Assembly (NCBI RefSeq): GCF_023555055.1
Contig: NZ_JAMJPL010000001.1
Coordinates: forward strand, 992,001-1,056,000
DNA: 64,000 bases
Source of the DNA: Marinobacter sp. ATCH36
GTDB lineage: Bacteria; Pseudomonadota; Gammaproteobacteria; Pseudomonadales; Oleiphilaceae
Direction: 5' to 3'
In this document: positions 9,241-43,849 of the stretch, piece after piece
Layout: each line of letters begins with the position of its first letter
Position numbering within the stretch: position 1 is the stretch's first letter
Program-made: the position numbers and the translations under genes
Notes under the pieces: model-generated
What the model saw: only the letters and a program-made list of their open reading frames with translations
What the model was told of the DNA's origin: nothing
Database searches by the model: none

Positions 9241-10536
9241 TCAGTAAGATGAACTCATGCCGAACCATTCAGGGAATATGACGATCAAGGCCAGGACCAG
9301 TACCTGCATCAATATGAACGGCAAAACCCCTTTGTAGATATCCGTGGTTTTTATCGTAGGCGGTGATACCCCTTTGAGATAGAACAGACTGAACCCGAAT
9401 GGGGGTGTCAGGAAGCTGGTCTGCAGGTTCATGGCGATCAGGATGGCAAACCAGAGCATGTTGATGCCCATTGCTTCCGCGACAGGAGCCAGAATTGGCA
9501 CAATGATGAAGGAGATTTCCACGAAGTCGATGAAGAAGCCCAGCACCAGGATGACCAGCATGGCCAGGATGATGAATCCCCATTTCTCGCCTGGAAGCTG
9601 CAGCATCCACTCTTCCAGCAGGTAGTCGCCACCGGTATAGCTGAACACCATCGAGAATGCCGTTGCACCGATCAGAATGGCGAATACCATGGCGGTCACC
9701 TTGACGGTGTCCTTGGAGGCGTCCCAGACCATCTGGAACGAGAACTGGCGGTAAATGATCGCCAGAACGACGGCGCCAACGCCACCAAGAGCCGAGGATT
9801 CGGTGGGTGTGGCAATACCGGCGAAGATGGAGCCCAGTACTATGACAATCAAAGCCAGTGGCGGAATGATGGCAAGCAGCGCCGCCATAATTTCCTTGCC
9901 ACGGGAAAGGCCGCTGTCATCAGGCATCGCGGGGGCGGTTTCGGGCTTGAAACGGGTCAGCACCAGAATATAGACGATGTACAGACTAACCAGGACTATG
10001 CCGGGTATCACTGCCGCCTTGAAAAGATCGCCTACAGGTAACCCGAGCACATCACCGAGAATGATCAGGATGATGGAAGGGGGCACGATCTGCCCCAGGG
10101 TGCCGGCGCCGCAGATGGTGCCGGTGGCAAGCCGCTTGTCGTAGTCGTGGGCGAGCATAACAGGCAGCGAAATCAGGCCCATGGCAACCACGCTGGCGCC
10201 GACCACACCGGTAGAGGCCGCAAGAAGCGCACCAACCAGAATGGTGGAAATTGCAAGCCCGCCCGGCAATCCACCAAAAAGCCGACCCATGGACGTGAGC
10301 AACTGCGCCGCCAGTTTTGTGCGCTGAAGAACCACACCCATGAAGATAAACAGCGGTACGGCCATCAGTGTGGTGTTCTGCATAACGCTCATGATGCGGT
10401 AGGGCATGAACGCGAAAAGATCCATACCTTCAGCGAAGACACCGAAGAACAGCGCAACACCACCAAAGGTAAATGCGACCGGGAAGCCCAACATCAGCAT
10501 CAGCAGGGCAACTCCGAACATAATCATGCCAATCAT
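9241..10536 (-). CDS. TRAP transporter large permease (DctM family)
   Basis: The large membrane subunit of a tripartite ATP-independent periplasmic transporter, driven by the sodium or proton gradient. It has 431 residues and about a dozen hydrophobic segments, with family motifs GFPVAFTFGG near residue 17, AASTGVVGASVVAMG near 110 and TPTESSALGGVGAV near 240. It overlaps the DctQ stop by 4 nt (ATGA), so the two are translationally coupled. It is last in the operon dctP-dctQ-dctM read on the minus strand. Confidence 0.95.
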   Translation of the reverse strand: MIGMIMFGVALLMLMLGFPVAFTFGGVALFFGVFAEGMDLFAFMPYRIMSVMQNTTLMAVPLFIFMGVVLQRTKLAAQLLTSMGRLFGGLPGGLAISTILVGALLAASTGVVGASVVAMGLISLPVMLAHDYDKRLATGTICGAGTLGQIVPPSIILIILGDVLGLPVGDLFKAAVIPGIVLVSLYIVYILVLTRFKPETAPAMPDDSGLSRGKEIMAALLAIIPPLALIVIVLGSIFAGIATPTESSALGGVGAVVLAIIYRQFSFQMVWDASKDTVKVTAMVFAILIGATAFSMVFSYTGGDYLLEEWMLQLPGEKWGFIILAMLVILVLGFFIDFVEISFIIVPILAPVAEAMGINMLWFAILIAMNLQTSFLTPPFGFSLFYLKGVSPPTIKTTDIYKGVLPFILMQVLVLALIVIFPEWFGMSSSY

Positions 10537-11078
10537 GCCAGGCCCTCCGCGCCGTGTTTAGCTTCGTAAGTCTTTTCACCTGACAGGACCCGTATTGCGA
10601 AGGTCACCATGTTGACCCCGGCGATGCCGGTGAAGACGGCAGAAATCGGTATCACGCTTTTGATCACCCAGCGGTGAGGCAAACCGCCCGGGTCGCCGCT
10701 GCCCTCTCCCATGCTGTAGGACTCAACGGCGAAATTGTAGCCATAGTTCCAGATCAGATAAGAAAAAGGAATGATAAAGAGTACAGCACCGATCATGTTG
10801 ATCCAGGCCTTGGTCTTGTCGCTCCAGCGAGCGTACAAAACATCAACCCGGACATGTCCATCGGTACGCAAGGCAAAGGGGATGCCCAGCAGGAAGACCA
10901 CCGAGTAAAGGTGCCACTCCATTTCCTGCATGCCGATTGAGACGTCGTTAAAAACGTAACGGGCGACCACGTCGAAAAACACGTTGCCCGCCATCAGTAT
11001 CATCGCGGCACAGGCCACCCAGCCGCAGAATATGGAGAGGCGGGCCAGGCCCTCATCCAGCTTGATAATCCAACGCAT
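10533..11078 (-). CDS. TRAP transporter small permease (DctQ family)
   Basis: The four-helix small membrane subunit, 181 residues, that pairs with DctM. The hydrophobic profile fits DctQ, as do the motifs VVARYVFNDVSIGMQE and GIPFALRTDGHVRVDV. It lies 101 nt downstream of the binding-protein gene across a hairpin and overlaps dctM by 4 nt. The permease pair is probably expressed at a lower level than the binding protein. Confidence 0.92.
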   Translation of the reverse strand: MRWIIKLDEGLARLSIFCGWVACAAMILMAGNVFFDVVARYVFNDVSIGMQEMEWHLYSVVFLLGIPFALRTDGHVRVDVLYARWSDKTKAWINMIGAVLFIIPFSYLIWNYGYNFAVESYSMGEGSGDPGGLPHRWVIKSVIPISAVFTGIAGVNMVTFAIRVLSGEKTYEAKHGAEGLA

Positions 11079-11131
11079 TGATTGTCCTCTGCCAGCTAAA
11101 CCAGCGATCTTACATTTGCCAGAAACGAGAA

Positions 11132-11162
11132 AGCCGGGACCACCTCAAGAGCGATCCCGGCT
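11132..11162 (-). terminator. Attenuating hairpin between TRAP binding protein and permeases
   Basis: Perfect 8-bp arms AGCCGGGA and TCCCGGCT surround a 15-nt loop and are followed on the minus strand by the T-rich TTTCTCGTTT. It sits right after the binding-protein stop and before dctQ. This would favour higher expression of the periplasmic protein than of the permeases. Confidence 0.6.
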
Positions 11163-11179
11163 CTGTCACTGCCGACAGT

Positions 11180-12256
11180 TTACTCGACTTCTGACATCGT
11201 GTTGAGGTAGGCCCGCTCTGAAATATCCGTATAGGCGCGGCTTTGCTCAAGGTATTCCGTCTGGGACTTCACGATTCGGGCCGCCTGCTCATTTTCATTG
11301 GCGGCTTCTTCGAGAAGCTTCTCGTTGGCCTCATACATGGCCTGGAAGATGTCCTGCGGGAACTGCTTGATCTGCACGTTGGGGTACTCTTCCTTGATGT
11401 TGGCCCAGGCTTCCGCGTTCGCGTGCTGGGAATGAACCAGCATATCGTAGGACGCGGTGCGCATTGCTATGCGCATGATTTCCTGCAAGTCAGCCGGGAG
11501 TTCTTCCCAGACTTTCTTGTTGACCAGGAATTGCAGTTCCGTGGCAGGCTCATGCCATCCCGTGTAGTAGTAATCAGCGATCTGCTGGAAGCCAAGGCGG
11601 AGGTCCAGTGCCGGGCCTACCCATTCAACCGCATCGATGGTGTTGCGCTCCAGCGACGTGTAGAGCTCACCCGGCGCGATGTTGGTCGGGTTGACGCCAA
11701 CTTCTGCGAACACCTCACCAGCAAAGCCTGGAATACGCATTTTCAGGCCGTCCAGATCTTCCAGCGAATTGATTTCCTTGCGAAACCAGCCGCCCATCTG
11801 GACGCCAGTGTTACCACCCGGGAAAGACAGCATGTTATGAGGTTCGTAAACCTCCTGCATCAGCTCCATGCCACCGCCGTGGTAGAACCACGCATATTGT
11901 TCCATGGCGTTCATGCCAAAGGGCATGCTGGTGAAAAACAGCGTGTTGGGAACCTTGCCTTTCCAGTAGTAGGAGGCGGAGTGCCCCATGTCGTACTGGC
12001 CGGCCTTGACCATATCAAACACACCCAGAGGGGCTTTGTGCTTGTTGGCGGAATCAATGCGAACCTTGAGCCGGCCGTCGGACATTTTCTCGACACGCTC
12101 GGCAAAGTTTTTGGTGGTGTCACCAAATATCGGGAAGTTGGGGCCCCAGGTTTCTGCCAGGCGCAGGGTGAAAGTCTCTTGAGCGAGCGCCTGTGTGGAA
12201 GCAACGGTAGTTGCTACAGCCAGCACAGCCGCGGATAGAACAGAACGGATCTTCAT
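11180..12256 (-). CDS. TRAP substrate-binding protein, TakP-like
   Basis: The periplasmic binding component, 358 residues from the chosen start. A Sec signal ends at about QALA (residue 25). The blocks GGNTGVQMGGWFRKE, MRIPGFAGEVF with its conserved Arg, and DAVEWVGPALDLRLGF resemble the TakP group, whose characterised member binds 2-oxo acids such as pyruvate together with a metal ion. Substrate is therefore a 2-oxo acid by family inference. The ATG at 12256 is preferred over 12280 because AGAAGAG precedes it and the signal peptide begins there. Confidence 0.88.
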   Translation of the reverse strand: MKIRSVLSAAVLAVATTVASTQALAQETFTLRLAETWGPNFPIFGDTTKNFAERVEKMSDGRLKVRIDSANKHKAPLGVFDMVKAGQYDMGHSASYYWKGKVPNTLFFTSMPFGMNAMEQYAWFYHGGGMELMQEVYEPHNMLSFPGGNTGVQMGGWFRKEINSLEDLDGLKMRIPGFAGEVFAEVGVNPTNIAPGELYTSLERNTIDAVEWVGPALDLRLGFQQIADYYYTGWHEPATELQFLVNKKVWEELPADLQEIMRIAMRTASYDMLVHSQHANAEAWANIKEEYPNVQIKQFPQDIFQAMYEANEKLLEEAANENEQAARIVKSQTEYLEQSRAYTDISERAYLNTMSEVE

Positions 12257-12381
12257 TGCTCTTCTAGCCTCTTTTGTCATTGTTGTATCGAGAGCCTCTC
12301 CCGTGATCGGGATGAGTAACTCTGAATTCTAGGCCAAGTTAGCAATAATCGACAGTCAACGGAATGAAAAACCGCTGTCTC

Positions 12382-12397
12382 TAAGACCTAGGTCTTA
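12382..12397. promoter_or_regulatory. Perfect 16-bp palindrome upstream of the TRAP operon
   Basis: TAAGACCTAGGTCTTA is a perfect inverted repeat 126 nt upstream of the dctP start and downstream of the radical SAM gene. It is a good candidate operator for a dimeric regulator. No regulator gene lies next to the operon, so the binder is unknown. Confidence 0.45.
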
Positions 12398-12437
12398 AGT
12401 ATTTCCGGCACTTGCACTGTGATGGTGCGGATAAGAT

Positions 12438-13508
12438 TCACAAAAGAGATATCTGCTGGCCGCCGGGTCGTCGGAACAGATCAGTGCGCAGTGGTTCGGG
12501 TTCATGGCGTCCAAGGCCAAGGTTGGCGGTTTTCCGGTTGAAGCGCTGTCTCACCAGGTCTGCATAGGGCCCCGTTCCTGTCATTCTTCTGCCCCACTGC
12601 GAGTCGTAGCTTTTGCCACCCCTGAGGTCACGGATGCGGTTCATTACCCGTTCCGCCCGATCTGGAAAATGCCGTTGCAGCCAGTCCTGAAACAGTTCAT
12701 CCAGTTCCAGTGGAAGTCGCAGCATGATCCAGCTTGCCCGCTCTGAGCCGGCGCTGGCGGCGGCTTCCAGTATGGCTTCGATCTCATGGTCGTTGATGAA
12801 CGGAATCACCGGGCCGAGAATGATGCCTGTCGGCACTCCCGCAGCGGTTAACTCGCGGATGATTTTCAGCCGTGTGGCCGGGGCAGCGGTTCTGGGTTCC
12901 ATTTTCCGCTTCAGGGAATTGTCCAGGGTCGTGAGACTGACGCGTACGGAGCAGAGCCCCTGATCCGCCAGTTCCGATAACAGGTCCAGATCTCTCAGGA
13001 TCAGGGCACCTTTGGTAATGATAGATACCGGATGGCGGTACTCAATCAGTACCTTGAGGATATCCCGGGTAATTTCCCGCTGTTTCTCCACGGGCTGGTA
13101 GGCGTCGGTATTCACGCCGAGAGCGATGGGTGATACCCGGTATCCGGGTTTGTCCAGTTCCCGGCGAAGCTGCTCTGCTGCATTGGGCTTGGCAATCAGC
13201 CGGGTTTCGAAGTCCAGCCCCGGAGACATATCCCAGTACGCATGTGTGGGCCGGGCGAAGCAATAAATGCATGCGTGCTCGCAGCCGCGATAGGGGTTTA
13301 TGGACTGATCAAAGGGTACATCGGGCGAGCGATTGCGGCTGATGATGGACCGCACCTGCTCGTTCACCACCTCGGTGGCGACAGAGTCGGGGCAGATTTC
13401 GTCGTCGGGGTCCTGATACCAGCCGTCGTCACATTGCCGGTCAGTGACGATGGGCCGGAAACGGTTGTGGGGATTGAGATGTGTGCCTCTGGTTTTCATG
13501 ACGGGCAT
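12438..13508 (-). CDS. PA0069-family radical SAM protein (SplB-like)
   Basis: A 356-residue radical SAM protein. The iron-sulfur cluster motif CEHACIYC (CxxxCxxC) lies near residues 76-83, after the block NPYRGC typical of the PA0069/spore-photoproduct-lyase-like group. A TIM-barrel core with TKGALILRDLDLL and GPVIPFINDHE follows. The gene has an almost ideal LexA box 5 nt upstream of the first ATG, so a DNA-damage role is plausible; the reaction is unknown. A second ATG at 13499 (MKTRG) could be the true start given how close the box is. It is transcribed in the same direction as the TRAP operon but is probably separate. Confidence 0.87.
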   Translation of the reverse strand: MPVMKTRGTHLNPHNRFRPIVTDRQCDDGWYQDPDDEICPDSVATEVVNEQVRSIISRNRSPDVPFDQSINPYRGCEHACIYCFARPTHAYWDMSPGLDFETRLIAKPNAAEQLRRELDKPGYRVSPIALGVNTDAYQPVEKQREITRDILKVLIEYRHPVSIITKGALILRDLDLLSELADQGLCSVRVSLTTLDNSLKRKMEPRTAAPATRLKIIRELTAAGVPTGIILGPVIPFINDHEIEAILEAAASAGSERASWIMLRLPLELDELFQDWLQRHFPDRAERVMNRIRDLRGGKSYDSQWGRRMTGTGPYADLVRQRFNRKTANLGLGRHEPEPLRTDLFRRPGGQQISLL

Positions 13509-35770: not shown

Positions 35771-35790
35771 CTGTTTCATTCTTGAAACAG
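35771..35790. promoter_or_regulatory. Upstream dyad of cassette copy 1 (candidate activator site)
   Basis: CTGTTTCATTCTTGAAACAG has perfect 8-bp arms and a 4-nt spacer. It ends exactly 87 nt before the -24 element of the sigma-54-type promoter at 35877. The same arrangement, one arm base changed, occurs before copy 2. Enhancer-binding proteins usually bind about 80-150 nt upstream, so this is the best candidate site for the regulator at 42476-43849. Confidence 0.65.
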
Positions 35791-35876
35791 TTTGACGCCC
35801 TCGTGAACAGCCGTGGTTTTATACGATAATATTAAATTTATTTAAAAACAGTGTATTAGAGTTTGTTTTTCAATCC

Positions 35877-35892
35877 TGGCACGGGAATCGCT
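35877..35892 (+). promoter_or_regulatory. Sigma-54-type promoter of cassette copy 1
   Basis: TGGCACGGGAATCGCT fits the -24/-12 consensus TGGCACG-N4-TTGCW with one mismatch and has the invariant GG and GC separated by ten bases. It is 95 nt upstream of the first gene of the cassette and is conserved before copy 2. Confidence 0.7.
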
Positions 35893-35924
35893 GTGCTTGT
35901 CTGGCGGGTCCAATCCATGGGTTA

Positions 35925-35940
35925 CCTGAAAATGGACAGG
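35925..35940 (+). promoter_or_regulatory. Leader hairpin with GGA loop, candidate CsrA/RsmA site (copy 1)
   Basis: CCTGAAAATGGACAGG forms a CCTG/CAGG stem with AUGGA in the loop; A-T closing extends it to five pairs. Further GGA elements follow (TTGGATAGG and AAAGGGA, the latter at the ribosome site). The motif is identical before copy 2. This is the usual appearance of a CsrA/RsmA target; binding is inferred. Confidence 0.5.
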
Positions 35941-35986
35941 TTGGATAGGCCCTTCAAAAGCCATTCATGCCAAAGGGAATAACATC

Positions 35987-36898
35987 ATGAACACTAGAAA
36001 AAACTTGCTAGCGATCGCGGTTGCAATGGGCCTTGGACTGTCCGGCGCCGCCTGGGCTGATCTGGGTGGCAACGGTGGTCCAAACACCAACGCCGACCAG
36101 GCATCGGCAGCCAATAACGACCATTCCGGCAATACCGATTCCGGCAATGACAACTCCACTAATACCCAGACCAACGCCAATACCGATAGCTCCAATAATA
36201 GCCACACCAACGCTAATACCGACAATTCGGATAACAGCCACACCAACGCTAATACTGAAACCAGAACCGATCCGAAAAATTCGTACAATACGGACAATTC
36301 GACGGACAGCTCGGATCGCAGCCACACCAACGCGAACACCGAAACCAGAACCGATCCCAAGGATTCGTACAATACGGATAATTCGGACCGCAGCCACACC
36401 AACGCCAATACCGACAACTCGAATAACTCCGATAACTCGGATCGCAGCCATACCAACGCCAATACCGAAACCAGAACCGATCCCAAGGATTCGTACAATA
36501 CGGACAACTCGGATCGCAGCCATACCAACGCCAATACCGAAACCAGAACCGATCCCAAGGATTCGTACAATACGGATAACTCAGATCGCAGCCACACCAA
36601 CGCCAATTCCGACAGCTCGGACAACAGCATTGATCTGGACCTGGCTCTTGAGGTGTTCATGAACGATGCCGAGCTTCATGGCTCCGTCACCGGCACAGAA
36701 GTGAGGTACGGTGACGCTAAGGGAAGAGATAATTCCAGCACTGTTGCTCGCAACCGCAATGAAATTTCAGGCGGCTCAGCGAACTACACCGGTGTCGGAG
36801 CATTCGCTCAGAACGCAGGCAACGGCAGTGTCGTACAGGCTAACGTCAGTGTGATGTCTAATCTGAACGCTAGTGGCGGTGGTGGCGGCACCCAATAA
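35987..36898 (+). CDS. Secreted repeat-rich protein, cassette copy 1, gene 1
   Basis: A 303-residue exported protein with a Sec signal ending AAWA (residue 24). Residues 60-213 are Asn/Thr/Ser/Asp-rich repeats built on a unit that opens SHTNAN, 12 or 24 residues long, with spacers of 18 and 28. A C-terminal domain (214-303) ends in AFAQNAGNGSVVQANVSVM, which resembles the Gln/Asn spacing of curlin-type strands. I do not recognise the family. As the first and most variable gene of a sigma-54-type cassette with a peptidase and an outer-membrane barrel nearby, it is a good candidate for the structural subunit of a surface fibre or matrix protein. The start follows AAGGGAAT. Confidence 0.75.
   Translation: MNTRKNLLAIAVAMGLGLSGAAWADLGGNGGPNTNADQASAANNDHSGNTDSGNDNSTNTQTNANTDSSNNSHTNANTDNSDNSHTNANTETRTDPKNSYNTDNSTDSSDRSHTNANTETRTDPKDSYNTDNSDRSHTNANTDNSNNSDNSDRSHTNANTETRTDPKDSYNTDNSDRSHTNANTETRTDPKDSYNTDNSDRSHTNANSDSSDNSIDLDLALEVFMNDAELHGSVTGTEVRYGDAKGRDNSSTVARNRNEISGGSANYTGVGAFAQNAGNGSVVQANVSVMSNLNASGGGGGTQ
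36164..36625 (+). repeat. In-frame tandem repeats in gene 1, copy 1
   Basis: Eight units begin with (S/T)(H/Q)TNAN and alternate a 12-residue form with a longer form that adds TRTDPK(D/N)SYNTDNS. At DNA level the 36-bp and 72-bp units are nearly identical, so slippage or recombination could change their number. Confidence 0.85.
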
Positions 36899-36907
36899 GG
36901 AATCCAG

Positions 36908-36929
36908 GCCGCGCCTTAATGGGTGCGGC
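36908..36929 (+). promoter_or_regulatory. Intercistronic hairpin, copy 1
   Basis: GCCGCGCC pairs with GGTGCGGC (one G-U pair) around six bases, 9 nt after the gene 1 stop. Copy 2 has the same stem as GCCGCACC/GGTGCGGC, a change that keeps pairing. It may stabilise the upstream message or reduce read-through, keeping gene 1 above genes 2-4. Confidence 0.5.
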
Positions 36930-36952
36930 CCGGTTATTCCGGGAGAACTGCC

Positions 36953-37303
36953 ATGGGTCGCGTTATCAGATGGAAACTGAAGGCTGCCTTGTTAGCGTTA
37001 ATGTTCGTGGCAACGGGGTTTGTGTCCGCCGAGGAGTGGATGGATGCCGCACCGATGTCGGCGGATCAGCTGGCGGACTCTAGTGGTCGCCAGGGAATCC
37101 CGATGCAGTGGCAGATTAACGATAACCAGCAGAATGCGAATGTGTCCGACAACCTGCTGTCGGGAAATGTTGTCACAGGTGATAACAGTATTTCCGACAA
37201 CGCGTTCGGCAACATGAGCGGAGTTGCCACGGTTATCCAGAACACCGGTAACCAGGTGGTCATTCAGGACAGTACCCAGATCAATATACTGCTTAATCAC
37301 TGA
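36953..37303 (+). CDS. Small secreted protein, cassette copy 1, gene 2
   Basis: A 116-residue exported protein with a Sec signal ending near FVSA (residue 26). The mature part is Asn/Gln-rich (QWQINDNQQNANVSDNLL, NSISDNAFGNM) and ends in VIQNTGNQVVIQDSTQINIL. That C-terminal pattern recurs in gene 4 and more loosely in gene 1. The spacing of Gln and Asn suggests stacked beta-strands, as in curlin or nucleator proteins, but no known family was recognised. The ATG at 36953 follows GGGAG by 7 nt. It is identical to the protein at 39817. Confidence 0.75.
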   Translation: MGRVIRWKLKAALLALMFVATGFVSAEEWMDAAPMSADQLADSSGRQGIPMQWQINDNQQNANVSDNLLSGNVVTGDNSISDNAFGNMSGVATVIQNTGNQVVIQDSTQINILLNH

Positions 37304-37315
37304 CGGAGGTGGGCC

Positions 37316-38008
37316 ATGACCAGGAAGGTTCTTGTTGCAATCTGCGCGAGTACCGGGCTGCTATGGTCCACCGCTTTTGCAGGCTCGGTCATGTTGCCGG
37401 GTATTGGCGGTGATGTGCGGGTACAGGTGAACAGTTTCGAGAACCGGCGCTTTGACAGTGTCATGCGCCAACAATACGACTTCAGTTGCGGCTCCGCCGC
37501 GATTGCTTCGTTGTTGTCCTTTCATTACGAAGACGAGGTATCAGAGCACGATGTCTTCGTCGAGATGCTCTCGCTGGCGGACGAGCAGAAAGTACGCCAG
37601 GACGGTTTCTCAATGCTTGATATGAAGCGCTATCTTGAGGCCAGGGGGTATCAGGCCGACGGTTTTCGCATGCCGTTGACCGGGCTGAAGGAAAAAGTGC
37701 GCTTACCCATGATTGTGTTGCTGAACATTGATGGATTCCGGCATTTCGTCCTGATCAAGGGGATCAGTGACGATGAGGTCCTGGTGGGGGACCCGGCGCG
37801 GGGGCTGAAGGTTTTTTCCTACCGACAATTCAGCGAGTACTGGAACGGTACCGCCTTTATTATCCGCAGCCATCTAAAACAGGGTCGGGACGGATTTCTC
37901 GGCGACGGACACTGGCCGCAGGTAGCCAGGGCGCCGATACAGAAAGGCCTGGGCGGTCCTTCACTCGGGCACACATTGCCCTACTGGCCCTCCTCAAGGG
38001 AATGGTGA
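37316..38008 (+). CDS. C39-like cysteine peptidase, cassette copy 1, gene 3
   Basis: A 230-residue exported protein with a signal ending TAFA and a C39-type papain-like fold. The catalytic Cys58 lies in QQYDFSCGSAAIASLL, His143 in GFRHFVLIKG and Asp159 in VLVGDPARG; a Gln just before the Cys fits the oxyanion hole. Unlike bacteriocin exporters it has no ABC transporter domain. The same kind of stand-alone C39 protein (FapD) occurs in Fap amyloid operons, where it is needed for fibre secretion. Its likely substrates are the neighbouring secreted proteins. The start has GGAGG upstream; the stop overlaps gene 4 as TGATG. Confidence 0.85.
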   Translation: MTRKVLVAICASTGLLWSTAFAGSVMLPGIGGDVRVQVNSFENRRFDSVMRQQYDFSCGSAAIASLLSFHYEDEVSEHDVFVEMLSLADEQKVRQDGFSMLDMKRYLEARGYQADGFRMPLTGLKEKVRLPMIVLLNIDGFRHFVLIKGISDDEVLVGDPARGLKVFSYRQFSEYWNGTAFIIRSHLKQGRDGFLGDGHWPQVARAPIQKGLGGPSLGHTLPYWPSSREW

Positions 38009-38505
38009 TGATCATGATGGTCCGGATGCCAGCCATAGCGTTACTGGTTGTTTCATGTGCAGTGGTGTCGCCATCTGTCCAGGCAGAGCTGACGCTGGGT
38101 GTTGAGCCCCTGAGTGACCCGGAGCTGTCAGAGTATCGGGGCGGCTTCCTGATGGATAATCTGGAGATCAGCATTGGTCTGGAGCAGATTGTTGGTATCA
38201 ACGGTGACACCCTGGTGGTCAACCGCCTGACCATTCCCAATCTCAATCAGGCGGTCAACGGCGGTCTGGTGGACCATCAAATGGACACAGTACTCGAGGT
38301 TATTAGCGCAAACCGCAGCGGCGGCGCGCGGGTGTCCAGTAATATGGCGGGGCCTGGCGGCTGGATGACGGTGATTCAGAACAACCTCGACAGCACGGTG
38401 ATACAGAATATGCACCAGCTGAATATCGAGCTGAACAATCTGGGTGCCGGAAATCAGTTCCCGGCACGGTTCAGTGATCAGTTGGTGCAGTTGCTTGGCC
38501 GCTAA
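38008..38505 (+). CDS. Small secreted protein, cassette copy 1, gene 4
   Basis: A 165-residue exported protein with a signal ending SVQA (residue 26). The mature part has SEYRGGFLMDNLEISIGLEQ, then a C-terminal segment, MTVIQNNLDSTVIQNMHQLN, that mirrors the end of gene 2. No named family was recognised. The start at 38008 is preferred over 38002 because AAGGG is then 7 nt away and it forms a TGATG junction with the peptidase stop. It is identical to the protein at 40872. Confidence 0.75.
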   Translation: MIMMVRMPAIALLVVSCAVVSPSVQAELTLGVEPLSDPELSEYRGGFLMDNLEISIGLEQIVGINGDTLVVNRLTIPNLNQAVNGGLVDHQMDTVLEVISANRSGGARVSSNMAGPGGWMTVIQNNLDSTVIQNMHQLNIELNNLGAGNQFPARFSDQLVQLLGR

Positions 38506-38643
38506 GTTATCTGCAGTTCCTCCCTAGTGATTGTGTTCGGGCCTCCTGAATATTCAGTGGTTGCTTTTTTACACTGCTGTTTTTGGCTATGTGTCTGAAT
38601 GAACGACGTAAATGCCCGGTTTGTTCGGAAGATGAGTGCGGCA

Positions 38644-38663
38644 CTGTTTCATTTGTGGAACAG
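38644..38663. promoter_or_regulatory. Upstream dyad of cassette copy 2
   Basis: CTGTTTCATTTGTGGAACAG keeps the 8-4-8 layout of copy 1, with one arm mismatch, and again ends 87 nt before a -24 element. The surrounding sequence has diverged, so conservation of both motif and spacing points to function. Confidence 0.65.
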
Positions 38664-38749
38664 TTTATTCTGCTTCTATTCTCTGTTATATCTTGGCTAT
38701 CGAATGATTATCTTTATATTTCAGTATGTTATAAAATAAAATTTTGACT

Positions 38750-38765
38750 TGGCACGCGAATCGCT
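38750..38765 (+). promoter_or_regulatory. Sigma-54-type promoter of cassette copy 2
   Basis: TGGCACGCGAATCGCT again shows the GG-N10-GC core and differs from the copy 1 element at one position, in the N4 spacer. It lies 99 nt upstream of gene 1 of copy 2. Confidence 0.7.
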
Positions 38766-38797
38766 ACTTTCTTTTGGCGGGTCCGAACCATGGATTA

Positions 38798-38813
38798 CCT
38801 GAAAATGGACAGG
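38798..38813 (+). promoter_or_regulatory. Leader hairpin with GGA loop, candidate CsrA/RsmA site (copy 2)
   Basis: The 16-base hairpin CCTGAAAATGGACAGG is unchanged from copy 1 although the leader around it has substitutions and small insertions. The following TTGGATAGG and the AAGGGA ribosome site are also conserved. Confidence 0.5.
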
Positions 38814-38863
38814 TTGGATAGGCCCCCTCAAAAAAAGCCAATCATGCCAAAGGGAATAACATC

Positions 38864-39757
38864 ATGAACACTAGAAAAAACTTGCTAGCGATCGCGGTTG
38901 CAATGGGCCTTGGACTGTCCGGCGCCGCCTGGGCTAATCTGGGTGGGGATGGTGATCCAAACACCAACGCCAATGACCAATCAGCAGCCAACAACGACAA
39001 TTCCGGCAATACCAATTCCGGAAACAATAACTCCACTAATGACCACACAAACGCTAATACCGACACTTCGGATAATAGCCACACCAACGCCAATACCGAT
39101 AGTTCGAATAATAGTCACACCAACGCTAATACTGAAACCAGAACCGATCCGAAAAATTCGTACAATACGGACAATTCGACGGACAGCTCGGATCGCAGCC
39201 ACACCAACGCGAACACCGAAACCAGAACCGATCCCAAGAATTCGTACAATACGGACAACTCGGATCGCAGCCATACCAACGCCAATTCCGACAGCTCGGA
39301 TAATTCCGATAATTCGGATCGCAGCCACACCAACGCGAACACCGAAACCAGAACCGATCCTAAAAATTCGTACAATACGGACAGCTCGGATCGCAGCCAC
39401 ACCAACGCGAACACCGAAACCAGAACCGATCCCAAGGATTCGTACAATACGGACAACTCGGATCGAAGCCACACCAACGCCAATACCGACAGCTCGGACA
39501 ACAGCATTGATCTGGACCTGTCTCTTGAGGTGTTCATGAACGATGCTGAGCTTCATGGCTCCGTCAGCGGCACAGAAGTGAGGTACGGTGACGCTAAAGG
39601 AAGAGATGATTCCAGCACTGTTGCTCGCAACCGCAATGAAATTTCAGGCGGCTCAGCGAACTACACCGGTGTCGGAGCATTCGCCCAGAACGCAGGCAAC
39701 GGCAGCGTCACACAGGCGAATGTCAGTGTGATGTCTAACCTGTCCGCAGGTAACTGA
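38864..39757 (+). CDS. Secreted repeat-rich protein, cassette copy 2, gene 1
   Basis: A 297-residue paralog of the protein at 35987, with the same signal peptide, the same order and phase of eight repeats (residues 60-213) and the same C-terminal domain. Substitutions are scattered through the mature part, and the last residues differ (SAGN in place of the glycine-rich tail). The intact frame and the conserved promoter show it is a functional second subunit rather than a decaying copy. Function is inferred as for copy 1. Confidence 0.75.
   Translation: MNTRKNLLAIAVAMGLGLSGAAWANLGGDGDPNTNANDQSAANNDNSGNTNSGNNNSTNDHTNANTDTSDNSHTNANTDSSNNSHTNANTETRTDPKNSYNTDNSTDSSDRSHTNANTETRTDPKNSYNTDNSDRSHTNANSDSSDNSDNSDRSHTNANTETRTDPKNSYNTDSSDRSHTNANTETRTDPKDSYNTDNSDRSHTNANTDSSDNSIDLDLSLEVFMNDAELHGSVSGTEVRYGDAKGRDDSSTVARNRNEISGGSANYTGVGAFAQNAGNGSVTQANVSVMSNLSAGN
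39041..39502 (+). repeat. In-frame tandem repeats in gene 1, copy 2
   Basis: The same eight-unit array as copy 1, and the same length, with base changes mostly swapping Asp/Asn and Ser/Thr. Unit number has not changed since duplication. Confidence 0.85.
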
Positions 39758-39766
39758 GGAAGCCGT

Positions 39767-39793
39767 GCCGCACCCGCTAGTACCAGGTGCGGC
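39767..39793 (+). promoter_or_regulatory. Intercistronic hairpin, copy 2
   Basis: GCCGCACC pairs perfectly with GGTGCGGC across an 11-nt loop, 9 nt after the gene 1 stop. The left arm and loop differ from copy 1 but pairing is kept. Confidence 0.5.
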
Positions 39794-39816
39794 CCGGTTA
39801 TTCCGGGAGAACTGCC

Positions 39817-40167
39817 ATGGGTCGCGTTATCAGATGGAAACTGAAGGCTGCCTTGTTAGCGTTAATGTTCGTGGCAACGGGGTTTGTGTCCGCCGAGGAG
39901 TGGATGGATGCCGCACCGATGTCGGCGGATCAGCTGGCGGACTCTAGTGGTCGCCAGGGAATCCCGATGCAGTGGCAGATTAACGATAACCAGCAGAATG
40001 CGAATGTGTCCGACAACCTGCTGTCGGGAAATGTTGTCACAGGTGATAACAGTATTTCCGACAACGCGTTCGGCAACATGAGCGGAGTTGCCACGGTTAT
40101 CCAGAACACCGGTAACCAGGTGGTCATTCAGGACAGTACCCAGATCAATATACTGCTTAATCACTGA
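39817..40167 (+). CDS. Small secreted protein, cassette copy 2, gene 2
   Basis: Identical in sequence to the 116-residue protein at 36953, with the same ribosome site and signal peptide. Its C-terminal VIQNTGNQVVIQ segment is discussed there. Two intact, identical copies suggest either recent duplication or gene conversion. Confidence 0.75.
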   Translation: MGRVIRWKLKAALLALMFVATGFVSAEEWMDAAPMSADQLADSSGRQGIPMQWQINDNQQNANVSDNLLSGNVVTGDNSISDNAFGNMSGVATVIQNTGNQVVIQDSTQINILLNH

Positions 40168-40179
40168 CGGAGGTGGGCC

Positions 40180-40872
40180 ATGACCAGGAAGGTTCTTGTT
40201 GCAATCTGCGCGAGTACCGGGCTGCTATGGTCCACCGCTTTTGCAGGCTCGGTCATGTTGCCGGGTATTGGCGGTGATGTGCGGGTACAGGTGAACAGTT
40301 TCGAGAACCGGCGCTTTGACAGTGTCATGCGCCAACAATACGACTTCAGTTGCGGCTCCGCCGCGATTGCTTCGTTGTTGTCCTTTCATTACGAAGACGA
40401 GGTATCAGAGCACGATGTCTTCGTCGAGATGCTCTCGCTGGCGGACGAGCAGAAAGTACGCCAGGACGGTTTCTCAATGCTTGATATGAAGCGCTATCTT
40501 GAGGCCAGGGGGTATCAGGCCGACGGTTTTCGCATGCCGTTGACCGGGCTGAAGGAAAAAGTGCGCTTACCCATGATTGTGTTGCTGAACATTGATGGAT
40601 TCCGGCATTTCGTCCTGATCAAGGGGATCAGTGACGATGAGGTCCTGGTGGGGGACCCGGCGCGGGGGCTGAAGGTTTTTTCCTACCGACAATTCAGCGA
40701 GTACTGGAACGGTACCGCCTTTATTATCCGCAGCCATCTAAAACAGGGTCGGGACGGATTTCTCGGCGACGGACACTGGCCGCAGGTAGCCAGGGCGCCG
40801 ATACAGAAAGGCCTGGGCGGTCCTTCACTCGGGCACACATTGCCCTACTGGCCCTCCTCAAGGGAATGGTGA
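40180..40872 (+). CDS. C39-like cysteine peptidase, cassette copy 2, gene 3
   Basis: Identical to the 230-residue peptidase at 37316, with Cys58, His143 and Asp159 intact. Because the enzyme is identical while the gene 1 proteins differ, one specificity must serve both gene 1 variants, if they are its substrates. Confidence 0.85.
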   Translation: MTRKVLVAICASTGLLWSTAFAGSVMLPGIGGDVRVQVNSFENRRFDSVMRQQYDFSCGSAAIASLLSFHYEDEVSEHDVFVEMLSLADEQKVRQDGFSMLDMKRYLEARGYQADGFRMPLTGLKEKVRLPMIVLLNIDGFRHFVLIKGISDDEVLVGDPARGLKVFSYRQFSEYWNGTAFIIRSHLKQGRDGFLGDGHWPQVARAPIQKGLGGPSLGHTLPYWPSSREW

Positions 40873-41369
40873 TGATCATGATGGTCCGGATGCCAGCCAT
40901 AGCGTTACTGGTTGTTTCATGTGCAGTGGTGTCGCCATCTGTCCAGGCAGAGCTGACGCTGGGTGTTGAGCCCCTGAGTGACCCGGAGCTGTCAGAGTAT
41001 CGGGGCGGCTTCCTGATGGATAATCTGGAGATCAGCATTGGTCTGGAGCAGATTGTTGGTATCAACGGTGACACCCTGGTGGTCAACCGCCTGACCATTC
41101 CCAATCTCAATCAGGCGGTCAACGGCGGTCTGGTGGACCATCAAATGGACACAGTACTCGAGGTTATTAGCGCAAACCGCAGCGGCGGCGCGCGGGTGTC
41201 CAGTAATATGGCGGGGCCTGGCGGCTGGATGACGGTGATTCAGAACAACCTCGACAGCACGGTGATACAGAATATGCACCAGCTGAATATCGAGCTGAAC
41301 AATCTGGGTGCCGGAAATCAGTTCCCGGCACGGTTCAGTGATCAGTTGGTGCAGTTGCTTGGCCGCTGA
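40872..41369 (+). CDS. Small secreted protein, cassette copy 2, gene 4
   Basis: Identical to the 165-residue protein at 38008 apart from the stop codon (TGA in place of TAA). It ends 18 nt before the convergent outer-membrane barrel gene, and no clear terminator separates them. Confidence 0.75.
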   Translation: MIMMVRMPAIALLVVSCAVVSPSVQAELTLGVEPLSDPELSEYRGGFLMDNLEISIGLEQIVGINGDTLVVNRLTIPNLNQAVNGGLVDHQMDTVLEVISANRSGGARVSSNMAGPGGWMTVIQNNLDSTVIQNMHQLNIELNNLGAGNQFPARFSDQLVQLLGR

Positions 41370-41387
41370 GTTATCTGCACTTTCTCC

Positions 41388-42464
41388 CTAAAGACTGATC
41401 GGAAGCTTGAGCGTAATTTCACTGTTGGGTGCATTTTCCGTTACGCCCACACTCACCGTCAGGCTCAGCGATGTGGACCGGCTCAGACGCTGGGACAAGC
41501 CGAACGACAGTGACCCGATCTGAATGCGATCGAAGTTGGATGCAAAAAGATCGTTATTTCTCTCGAACGTTGTCTTGCGGATGACCGAGTGATCATAGCC
41601 CAGGCTAAAGGACGTGCGGTCGTTGAACGCAAACCCCATTCCGAAGCCGAAACGCACGATGTCACCTGGATCAACGGTGCCGCCATTTTCGAAGCCTTGC
41701 TCCTCTTTGAGAGTCCATACATAACTCAGGTTTCCGAACAGCACGGCCGGATCGGTTGGGTAGATGAAGGAGAGACCGGGCTCAAACGCCCAGAAGCCGG
41801 AACCGGTCGGCCGGTTCTCCAGCTCAATGCCAATCGGGTTGCCCTGATTATCCCGGATGATTCTCTGGTCAACGTCGTAGGGGCCTTCGCCGGTTGGTGC
41901 TTTCACCCTCAGCCCGCCAATAACGTAAGGCCAGCCACCCAAGCCATCAGTTAACTGGTAACGAAACGAAAGTTCAACATCACCAAGGCCCTCGCCCGAG
42001 GACTCGCGCAGCGTATCCACTGGTGTGCCCTGAAATACCTCGCGCTCTCTGAGGTCCTCGTTAATGCTCAGATAGGGTACGCGAACTGCCGCTTCGAGCT
42101 TGCTTGTGAAGCCGTATTTCAGCGACATTGCGCCGACGAAAATATCACGCTGGATCTCCGAAATATTGATCAGCCCGATGAGCAGGGCAGGAATCACTGT
42201 GTAACCTTCTATTGCGACCGCTGTTGAATTGCTGTGGGCATGGGAGAATGAGGGTTCTATGGTAAACCGGCCCGGCCGGGTAACAATGCCCCGGTCCGAG
42301 GTAATGGATGCAATGTCGGTAGCCGGATCATGCCCATCTTCCGGCGCTGTTATCGACGTGCCACCCGCAGATGACGTGGCTTCCCTGTCCGCCTGTGCGG
42401 CTTCGATGAGTGTTGGCGTTGCTACCGCTAGTACAGGCACAAGCCAGAACATTTTTGCAGCCAT
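41388..42464 (-). CDS. Predicted outer-membrane beta-barrel protein linked to the cassettes
   Basis: A 358-residue protein with a Sec signal (ending EAAQA) and a short linker, then about a dozen amphipathic strands (FTIEPSFSHAHSN, LEAAVRVPYLSI, VELSFRYQL, YVIGGLRVKAPTG), ending in LKLPISL. The profile resembles MetA-pathway/transporter-type barrels. It lies 11 nt downstream of the regulator gene, so the two form an operon facing the cassettes. By analogy with FapF in Fap systems it could be the outer-membrane exit pore for the secreted proteins; that is inference. AAGGAG precedes the ATG. Confidence 0.75.
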   Translation of the reverse strand: MAAKMFWLVPVLAVATPTLIEAAQADREATSSAGGTSITAPEDGHDPATDIASITSDRGIVTRPGRFTIEPSFSHAHSNSTAVAIEGYTVIPALLIGLINISEIQRDIFVGAMSLKYGFTSKLEAAVRVPYLSINEDLREREVFQGTPVDTLRESSGEGLGDVELSFRYQLTDGLGGWPYVIGGLRVKAPTGEGPYDVDQRIIRDNQGNPIGIELENRPTGSGFWAFEPGLSFIYPTDPAVLFGNLSYVWTLKEEQGFENGGTVDPGDIVRFGFGMGFAFNDRTSFSLGYDHSVIRKTTFERNNDLFASNFDRIQIGSLSFGLSQRLSRSTSLSLTVSVGVTENAPNSEITLKLPISL

Positions 42465-42475
42465 GGAGATCTCCT

Positions 42476-43849
42476 TTAATCACTCTTTGAATGCGAGACG
42501 GACGTTTTGTGGGGAACCTGATGCTTGTCCATCAGCCGGTAAAACGACACTCTCGAAATGTTCAGCAATCGTGCTGCAGCGGAAATATTATTCTGCGCCA
42601 GCGCCAGGCTTACAGAGATCGCCTGCCGATCCGCCTGGGAGCGGAAGGCATCCAGCGATAGCTCCTGGGTCCGGCTCTGAGTGTTCGCCGGTGTCTGTCC
42701 AAAACCCATATCGACCGGTTCAATGACCTGGCCCTCCCCGAGCAGTAAAGCCTGCCGCAGTCGGTTCTGGAGCTCTCTGAGATTACCCGGCCAGGGATGT
42801 TCGGCGAGGCAGATCGTTGTACTGTCTGCCAGACGTTTGGGCGCAGACGTCGGCGTTGCCGACAGTAGGCGGTTTGCCAGCATAAGGACATCTTCTCTGC
42901 GCTCCCGCAGCGGTGGCAGCAGCACGTGCAGGCTGCCAAGCCGGTAAAAGACATCACTGCGAAAACGGCCTGAAGCCACCAACTGTTCCAGAGGGCTGGT
43001 GCTGGTTGCGATTAACCGGGCGTCCACCTTTATGGTGTGGCTGCCACCGATACGTTCGACCTGGCCTTCCTGAAGAAAACGCAGAATAGAGGACTGTTGC
43101 TCGGGGTTGAGCTCATCAACACCGACGAGAAGTAGCGTGCCACCGTGGGCAGATTCGATTCTGCCCTTCTGTGCCGTCATGGCATGCGTGAACGAGCCTT
43201 TTTCGTGCCCGAACAGTTCGTTCTGGGTCAGGGAAGGGGGCAGGGCAGCACAATTGACAACAACCAGGGGTTTATTTTTGCGTGGGGAATTGTTGTGAAT
43301 GTATTTGGCAGCCGCTTCTTTGCCAGTGCCGTTTTCACCGAAGATCAGCACAGGCTCTTCGGTGTGTGCGAACCGGCCAAGAAGACCCCTTGTCTGTCTG
43401 ATAGCCGGAGATTCGCCTTCCAGGGCAATATCATGGTAGCTCAGCGGTTTGGCACGGGAAGCTTTTGCCTGGAGTTCAGACATCCCCCACAGATGGCCAA
43501 GTATCCCGTTAAGCCGCTCAGGCTGAATCGGCAAGGTGTGATAATCCACGCAGTACCCGTTGATAAACCCGTACACGTCCGGGTCGTCAATCTGGCCAGG
43601 CTCAAGAATGGCAATCCAGTGCCTGACCCGGAGCGCCTCCAACCAATGACCTGCCTTGGCCAGCTGGTTCTCGGAGAGCGAGCCGAGATCCACTACACCA
43701 ACCCAGAAGCCGTCACCGGGAATATCGCGTAGCCGTAGTTCGGTACCAATGGCTACGGGAAATAATCGCCATTCCTTTAGCCCGATAGCGTGCGTTGCAA
43801 TACCGGAGTGTTCCGCCGACAGCCAGACGAGCGGTCTTTTTTCCTCCAT
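42476..43849 (-). CDS. Enhancer-binding-protein-like regulator, VpsR-like, with altered AAA+ motifs
   Basis: A 457-residue regulator with an N-terminal receiver-like domain (about 1-130), an AAA+ domain (about 140-370) and a Fis-type helix-turn-helix (NNISAAARLLNISRVSFYRL). Walker A is intact (GENGTGKE, 171-178) and the arginine-finger region FRSDVFYRL is present. GAFTGA is replaced by GSFTHA (218-223), and the Walker B Asp-Glu is replaced by Val-Gly (242-243). VpsR of Vibrio, a biofilm regulator, is likewise known to lack a canonical GAFTGA. It probably controls the cassettes, although their promoters look sigma-54-dependent. AAGGAG lies 7 nt before the ATG. Confidence 0.85.
   Translation of the reverse strand: MEEKRPLVWLSAEHSGIATHAIGLKEWRLFPVAIGTELRLRDIPGDGFWVGVVDLGSLSENQLAKAGHWLEALRVRHWIAILEPGQIDDPDVYGFINGYCVDYHTLPIQPERLNGILGHLWGMSELQAKASRAKPLSYHDIALEGESPAIRQTRGLLGRFAHTEEPVLIFGENGTGKEAAAKYIHNNSPRKNKPLVVVNCAALPPSLTQNELFGHEKGSFTHAMTAQKGRIESAHGGTLLLVGVDELNPEQQSSILRFLQEGQVERIGGSHTIKVDARLIATSTSPLEQLVASGRFRSDVFYRLGSLHVLLPPLRERREDVLMLANRLLSATPTSAPKRLADSTTICLAEHPWPGNLRELQNRLRQALLLGEGQVIEPVDMGFGQTPANTQSRTQELSLDAFRSQADRQAISVSLALAQNNISAAARLLNISRVSFYRLMDKHQVPHKTSVSHSKSD

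Follow-up and report, generated by a model that had tools for sequence, protein, structure and literature searches.

Organization of the Locus

The window analyzed here is a 64,000-nucleotide stretch of the genome of Marinobacter sp. ATCH36 (contig NZ_JAMJPL010000001.1, positions 992,001 to 1,056,000), and the locus under study occupies its positions 35,771 to 43,849. Two four-gene units of a secretion cassette lie head-to-tail on the plus strand (35987–38505 and 38864–41369 in the open reading frame, ORF, list), and opposite to them on the minus strand are a regulator gene (42476–43849) and then a gene for an outer-membrane barrel (41388–42464). The cassette suggests that the exporter of the functional amyloid Fap has a sister system. 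Its features, in window coordinates, are as follows.

35772–35789 (no strand): inverted repeat TGTTTCA-N4-TGAAACA upstream of unit 1, a candidate regulator site
35877–35891 (+): -24/-12 (sigma-54-type) promoter-like site of unit 1; a similar site is present in genus relatives
35987–36898 (+): gene 1 of unit 1, 303 amino acids; a signal peptide is predicted, the repeats vary, and a C-terminal module is conserved
36923–37303 (+): gene 2 of unit 1, small, with a predicted signal peptide, its start maybe at 36953; leader MSADQLADSSGR at 37055–37090
37316–38008 (+): gene 3 of unit 1, FapD-type C39 peptidase (Q52, C58, H143, D159)
38002–38505 (+): gene 4 of unit 1, 167 amino acids, with a FapE-like N-terminal region; leader LSDPELSEYRGG (before F) at 38110–38145
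38645–38662 (no strand): inverted repeat upstream of unit 2
38750–38764 (+): -24/-12 promoter-like site of unit 2
38864–39757 (+): gene 1 of unit 2, 297 amino acids
39787–40167 (+): gene 2 of unit 2, protein identical to that of unit 1; leader at 39919–39954
40180–40872 (+): C39 peptidase of unit 2, protein identical to that of unit 1
40866–41369 (+): gene 4 of unit 2, protein identical to that of unit 1; leader at 40974–41009
41388–42464 (-): FapF-type outer-membrane barrel, from sequence and structure comparison
42476–43849 (-): enhancer-binding-protein-like regulator with a VpsR domain; Walker-B acidic pair and GAFTGA altered

A sequence-only reading of the window had described a tandem-duplicated secretion cassette with a stand-alone C39 peptidase of intact Cys-His-Asp set, facing an operon of a barrel and an enhancer-binding-like regulator, and our analysis confirms this description. 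The ORFs form two four-gene units, the start of gene 4 overlapping the end of the peptidase gene, that align at 95.4% identity (35877–38526 with 38750–41390); the peptidase matches Pfam PF03412 (68.8 bits) and has all four residues listed above; the barrel matches PF13557 (31.5 bits); and the regulator has sigma-54 activator and VpsR domains. The same reading had not recognized the subunit families. Genes 1, 2, and 4 are without a Pfam family at E ≤ 1, and no known nonfiber family was found for gene 1 by Pfam or NCBIfam profile search. NCBIfam matches of gene 1 to lipase and MAP_0585 were dismissed as low-complexity and far under cut-off.

A segment of 1582 bp covering most of genes 2 to 4 is exactly identical between the units (36922–38503 and 39786–41367), while the promoter and gene 1 differ by ~12–15% (11/76, 36/300, and 31/261 positions in ungapped stretches). 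Given these alignment figures, the likeness of the units is not due to chance. The pattern looks like an older duplication in which genes 2 to 4 were homogenized later, presumably by gene conversion; alternatively, the exact identity of the 1582-bp copies may be an assembly effect.

Homology of the Peptidase, Barrel, and Gene-4 N-Terminus to Fap Proteins

The peptidase scored 151.8 bits with the NCBIfam FapD model and the barrel 151.6 bits with the FapF model, under the respective equivalog cut-offs of 330 and 700. All four PDB sequence matches of the barrel at E ≤ 1 were FapF (5o67, 5o65, 5o68; best E 3.5e-34), and FapF chains took Foldseek ranks 1 to 18 against a barrel model of moderate quality (predicted local distance difference test, pLDDT, 62; predicted template modeling score, pTM, 0.62). 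Residues Q52, C58, H143, and D159 of the C39 peptidase are identical in 50/50 aligned peptidases, and its best solved relative is 6mpz, the protease domain of a double-glycine-motif protease (E 1.5e-7), for which a complex with a leader peptide has been described (PMC8277102). By these comparisons, the peptidase and barrel of the cassette are homologous to FapD and FapF.

Gene 4 reached 21.4 bits of the 250 needed for NCBIfam FapE. It aligned with FapE by hhalign at 94.9% over 63 N-terminal columns, the remainder of the two proteins being different, and its N-terminal region is on this profile evidence homologous to FapE. A structure model of gene 4 (pLDDT 48) was too poor for use. The nearest named relatives of gene 4 are nearly all from Marinobacter, and homologs of the barrel are on record under the name of M. 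nauticus. The sequence-only reading had envisaged a Fap-analogous export system with unrelated subunits. The system is indeed Fap-like, with main subunits that are not recognizable as Fap, but "analogous" is too weak a word where the peptidase, the barrel, and the N-terminal region of gene 4 are homologous; gene 1 fails the FapC repeat test (see below).

A Leader Behind the Signal Peptide

Double-glycine bacteriocin leaders have the consensus L at -12, E at -8, L at -7, a hydrophobic residue at -4, and G at -2 and -1. Not more than ~45 residues behind the predicted signal peptide, gene-4 proteins carry a 12-residue leader that fits the double-glycine spacing (L-12, E-8, L-7, GG), in the window LSDPELSEYRGG followed by F. 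This leader ends RGG in 42/42 gene-4 proteins (21/21 from Marinobacter and 21/21 others); L, V, I, or M at -12, L or M at -7, and G at both -2 and -1 are found in all 42, and E at -8 in 28. A different form of the C39 site consensus is given by Rouse et al. (PMC5557850). In 25/25 FapE proteins, the corresponding position is taken by the same leader, ending with R or H, G, and R or K before Y or F.

Gene 2 carries a second version, ending SG and R or K before QG in 21/21 Marinobacter proteins, and outside this genus variant endings are common (RAK, RAR, RGM, RGQ, and RGT). GG is the ending of both leaders in Photobacterium, that of gene 2 (LSDSSMYETRGG) and that of gene 4 (MTQSEMSAIRGG). By hhalign, gene 2 gave 38% with FapB and 18% with FapE. 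By eye, stretches resembling LSDxD...SG can be seen in FapA of some loci; Rouse et al. mention FapA peptides across the whole sequence (PMC5557850), and FapA is described as frequently missing from Fap systems themselves (PMC3792158).

The leader motif was framed on the Marinobacter loci and the first Fap and sister loci, and tested on 26 further loci with a C39 score of at least 210 bits. It was present in 27/89 secreted-looking ORFs beside the peptidase versus 2/271 other such ORFs (p 3.7e-16), one of the latter two lying within the fap locus L140, and shuffled sequences produced 0.4 matches per round. A script found the leader in 23 of the 26 test loci; in L146 and L149 it was missed through start and signal-peptide heuristics and was seen by eye, and gene 4 of L129 has MRDNELGQIRGG. 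Among 27 loci with a more distant or truncated C39 peptidase, the leader was found in one, L167, itself fap-like. The motif was absent from FapB-model and FapC-model rows (0/48 each, overlapping sets) and from Marinobacter gene 1 (0/23); six apparent gene-1 matches proved to be gene-2 ORFs. In the N-terminal 170 residues of the barrels, 41/43 were without it, the remaining two being L135 3712–4905 and L088 9085–10500.

Several observations concern other C39 loci. The ATCH36 genome has a second, more distant C39-barrel pair that stands alone (L054 7762–9631; C24 ~185.8–187.6 kb), and similar C39 matches occur in most genus genomes searched. Two DUF6160 proteins of the same genome have, behind a signal peptide, what looks like a GQ variant of the leader (L200 1501–2436, MDDSMMGNVTGQAG; L201 757–1638, ISDETMGEVTGQAF), and as a guess these might be substrates of the stand-alone pair. 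A small ORF between C39 and barrel in another locus (L061 8945–9340) has the leader-like LSEQEMMETEGA behind a signal peptide, and a C39-barrel locus of a genus relative (L055 ~9771–12542, G003) has large secreted proteins with other leader-like stretches (LNSQDLDRITAAG). A regular expression for another leader type gave no match beside the more distant C39 loci.

Distribution and Phylogeny

A gene-neighborhood survey, one of the checks put forward with the sequence-only reading, confirmed co-conservation. In a set of 58 genomes (ATCH36 and relatives, 37 of them of the genus Marinobacter), the 22 that have the close-type peptidase are also the 22 that have gene 4, and all of them are members of the genus (22/37); the barrel is present in each of these 22 and, as no more than a broken piece, in G015. 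ATCH36 has two units, 20 genomes have one intact-looking unit, and one has a decayed remnant in which the barrel and the C39 peptidase are shortened and genes 1 and 2 survive as fragments (L052 8386–10116). The stretches of the relatives (n = 21) include isocitrate lyase in 20 cases and an SLC13-type transporter in 17. No second peptidase was found within the stretches examined of 18 named loci (15 Marinobacter and 3 Photobacterium), and the tandem copy is confined to ATCH36 among the genomes examined. Tandem duplication was also seen in a true Fap locus, L083 of G141, where one FapB-C-D-E set directly follows another, and a pair of genes resembling gene 1 is present in L120 and in the Photobacterium loci.

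Outside the genus, the plan of gene 2, peptidase, and gene 4 together with a barrel was found at six loci from a phylum search with FapF and, in a class sample comprising 370 genomes, at 15 loci. Within the stretch examined, all 15 class loci have a barrel and gene 2, 10 have a gene-1 match, and eight have a regulator. With ATCH36, G332, and G087, this amounts to 18/370 genomes having the cassette system versus 14 with Fap; both systems are present together in G087 and in G141, the latter from outside the class sample. In a tree of 58 C39 peptidases, the cassette branch (23 rows, 100/99) and the Fap branch (24 rows, 100/97) are separate. As judged from the peptidase tree and these counts, the cassette is a widespread sister lineage of Fap that is about as common in the class sample.

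Gene 1

Gene 1 is likely the main subunit. The sequence-only reading had regarded the system as built on SHTNAN repeats, which is not upheld: the conserved part of gene 1 is a C-terminal stretch, and the middle of the protein in genus relatives is a different, DNS-rich repeat. The Fap repeat expression GX4NX3GX6N (PMC3792158) was found in 0/22 Marinobacter gene-1 proteins and 0/16 others, versus 44/44 FapB- and FapC-model rows as control. Gene 1 as a plain FapC homolog was rejected, since hhalign of gene 1 with FapC gave 3.9% and the minimal Fap repeat was present in 0/22.

One iteration of the gene-1 profile collected 26 further matches. Ten of these have the Fap repeat and all ten are FapB (18–66 bits), while none of the remaining 16, which are true gene-1 rows, contains it. 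In the reverse direction, the FapB profile gave 144–172 bits with gene 1 of L130 and of L132, whose proteins contain multiple modules. It is possible that the subunit modules of gene 1 and FapB have a distant common origin, and the cross-match may also be a product of biased composition.

Regulation

A -24/-12-like site precedes gene 1 in 18/20 intact genus relatives, mostly at about -111 from the gene-1 start; in L049 a misplaced gene-1 start puts the site at -332. A similar inverted repeat is found upstream of gene 1 in 14/20. The fapA-E genes of Pseudomonas fluorescens PF07 are under a promoter of the -24/-12 type and require both RpoN and BrfA, the product of an adjacent reverse gene (PMC9207406), and BrfA has been reported as a sensor of cyclic diguanylate (PMC13101488). 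The cassette regulator is at the same place as BrfA beside fap, but in all 22 aligned Marinobacter regulators (window 42476–43849; L033–L053) the D-E pair of Walker B is lost and GAFTGA is changed, in contrast to regulators in Fap or sister stretches elsewhere, 31/31 of which keep LDE. The ATCH36 genome has 14 sigma-54-activator matches, of which the window regulator is the weakest.

Proposed Export Pathway and Alternatives

Rouse et al. (2017) found that FapC secretion fails when FapD carries alanine in place of its active cysteine, and described the target of FapD as unclear and the Fap proteins as lacking canonical C39 sequences (PMC5557850). The first ~70 residues of FapE yielded no peptides in their mass spectra, and they favor FapE as the target, citing GG/GA motifs (PMC5557850). 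A 2018 review still gives the substrate as undetermined (PMC6173800), and a 2013 survey treated many FapD and FapF matches as unspecific, attributing them to "two larger protein families" (PMC3792158). FapE as a suspect for FapD is therefore already known; our additions are the particular leader, the GG ending that it has in a sister system, and the observation that another protein carries it too. No description of the cassette system or of the FapE leader was found in the literature, in a search limited to open-licence papers.

We propose, with a probability of roughly 60%, that the cassette is a sister of the Fap exporter that likely makes a surface fiber, and that its predicted periplasmic C39 peptidase would cut the leader of gene 4 and also of gene 2 for export through the barrel. 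The subunits would cross the inner membrane via Sec, and signal peptidase would place the leader (LxDxELxxxRGG) at or near the new N-terminus, where the FapD-type peptidase could bind it and cut after GG. Processed gene 4 might then open or load the barrel, with gene 1 exported as main subunit and genes 2 and 4 as minor subunits of the putative, perhaps amyloid, fiber. Expression would be from the -24/-12 promoters under the control of the BrfA-like regulator. More tentatively, at slightly less than even odds, we suggest that Fap and the cassette both belong to a single "Sec plus double-glycine" pathway with two branches. In it, the periplasmic C39 peptidase would read a second leader, laid bare by signal peptidase, on a subunit dedicated to licensing (FapE in Fap and gene 4 in the cassette, where gene 2 would be a further carrier), and the cutting would switch the FapF-type barrel on for fiber export.

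Several points weigh against this proposal. The FapE leader ends R or K and not G, so that the cut in Fap may lie elsewhere or the leader may just be recognized, and the ~70 FapE residues missing in Rouse et al. are more than removal of the leader alone would explain (PMC5557850). The residues by which the two groups of peptidases differ do not pair in any simple way by charge with the leader residue at -1 (D115 in the cassette peptidase, R in that of Fap). Outside Marinobacter, the gene-2 leader is strict in just 9/21 proteins, although in two of the misses the wrong ORF had been taken for gene 2, the leaders of the true genes ending RGT and RGM; no gene-2 leader was seen in L135. The rows for gene 4 (42/42) and FapE (25/25) were gathered by profiles that include the leader and are not free of selection, as the position-based test is. 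Finally, gene 1 has no accepted amyloid repeat.

According to the main rival, the leader stays uncut and serves as a signal to the peptidase or barrel, for docking, targeting, or gating, and the peptidase either has a different protein to cut, such as the N-terminal linker of the barrel, or acts in part as a chaperone. The R or K at -1 of all 25 FapE proteins is in its favor, as is the consideration of FapF cutting by Rouse et al. (PMC5557850), and the leader motif in 2/43 barrels (L135 and L088) fits this older idea of a peptidase that cuts the barrel. We nevertheless consider it unlikely, for the GG is fixed in 42/42 gene-4 proteins and would be superfluous for docking alone, 41/43 barrels are without the motif, and the FapD cysteine is required for secretion (PMC5557850). 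Disfavored, and rather improbable, is that the locus is simply a divergent Fap operon with gene 1 as FapC or FapB. Homology of the peptidase, barrel, regulator, and gene-4 N-terminus to Fap parts would agree with it, as would the matches of the iterated gene-1 profile to 10 FapB and of L130 and L132 gene 1 to the FapB profile; however, the peptidases form separate groups in the tree (100/99 and 100/97), the Fap repeat is found in 0/22 and 0/16 gene-1 proteins versus 44/44 controls, gene 1 and FapC gave 3.9% by hhalign, and G087 and G141 hold both systems. Less probable still is export of soluble small proteins or a bacteriocin-like product. In its favor, bacteriocins are typically exported with the help of double-glycine leaders and C39 peptidases (PMC10233263), and genes 2 and 4 are small; against it, no ATP-binding cassette (ABC) transporter was found among the cassette genes, the barrel and regulator are of Fap type, and the profile finds long gene-1 proteins rich in N, S, and G in 10/15 class loci.

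If the C39 peptidase does cut the leader, as we propose, this would bear on what FapD processes in Fap amyloid export. A related peptidase adjoins a canonical-looking double-glycine leader in the cassette, and the matching site of FapE differs in the last residue, so that the open question of FapD becomes a simple cleavage test.

Comparison with Known Systems

The cassette is most like Fap (FapA-F and BrfA), with which it shares a C39 peptidase of FapD type, a barrel of FapF type, and a leader-bearing N-terminal region similar to that of FapE, as well as an activator-like regulator adjoining the barrel and a -24/-12-like promoter (for the Fap side, see PMC9207406 and PMC5557850). It differs from Fap in that gene 1 is without the Fap repeat, the leader ends GG and not G followed by R or K, the peptidase falls in a separate clade, and the barrel gene is convergent to the subunit genes and has a shorter N-terminus in this genome.

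The "putative pilus system" Fil also combines a C39 peptidase with a FapF-like barrel (FilB and FilC in NCBIfam), but the cassette proteins score lower to Fil than to Fap: 105.6 bits for FilB (cut-off 475) versus 151.8 for FapD, and 51.7 bits for FilC (cut-off 630) versus 151.6 for FapF. Genes 1, 2, and 4 had no match to the Fil models in the NCBIfam scan.

The peptidases of bacteriocin ABC exporters (PCAT, LahT, and ComA) have the C39 domain and its catalytic residues in common with the cassette peptidase, which, unlike them, is a protein by itself, for which a signal peptide is predicted. In contrast to bacteriocin leaders, the leader of the cassette sits behind a Sec signal and would be read in the periplasm.

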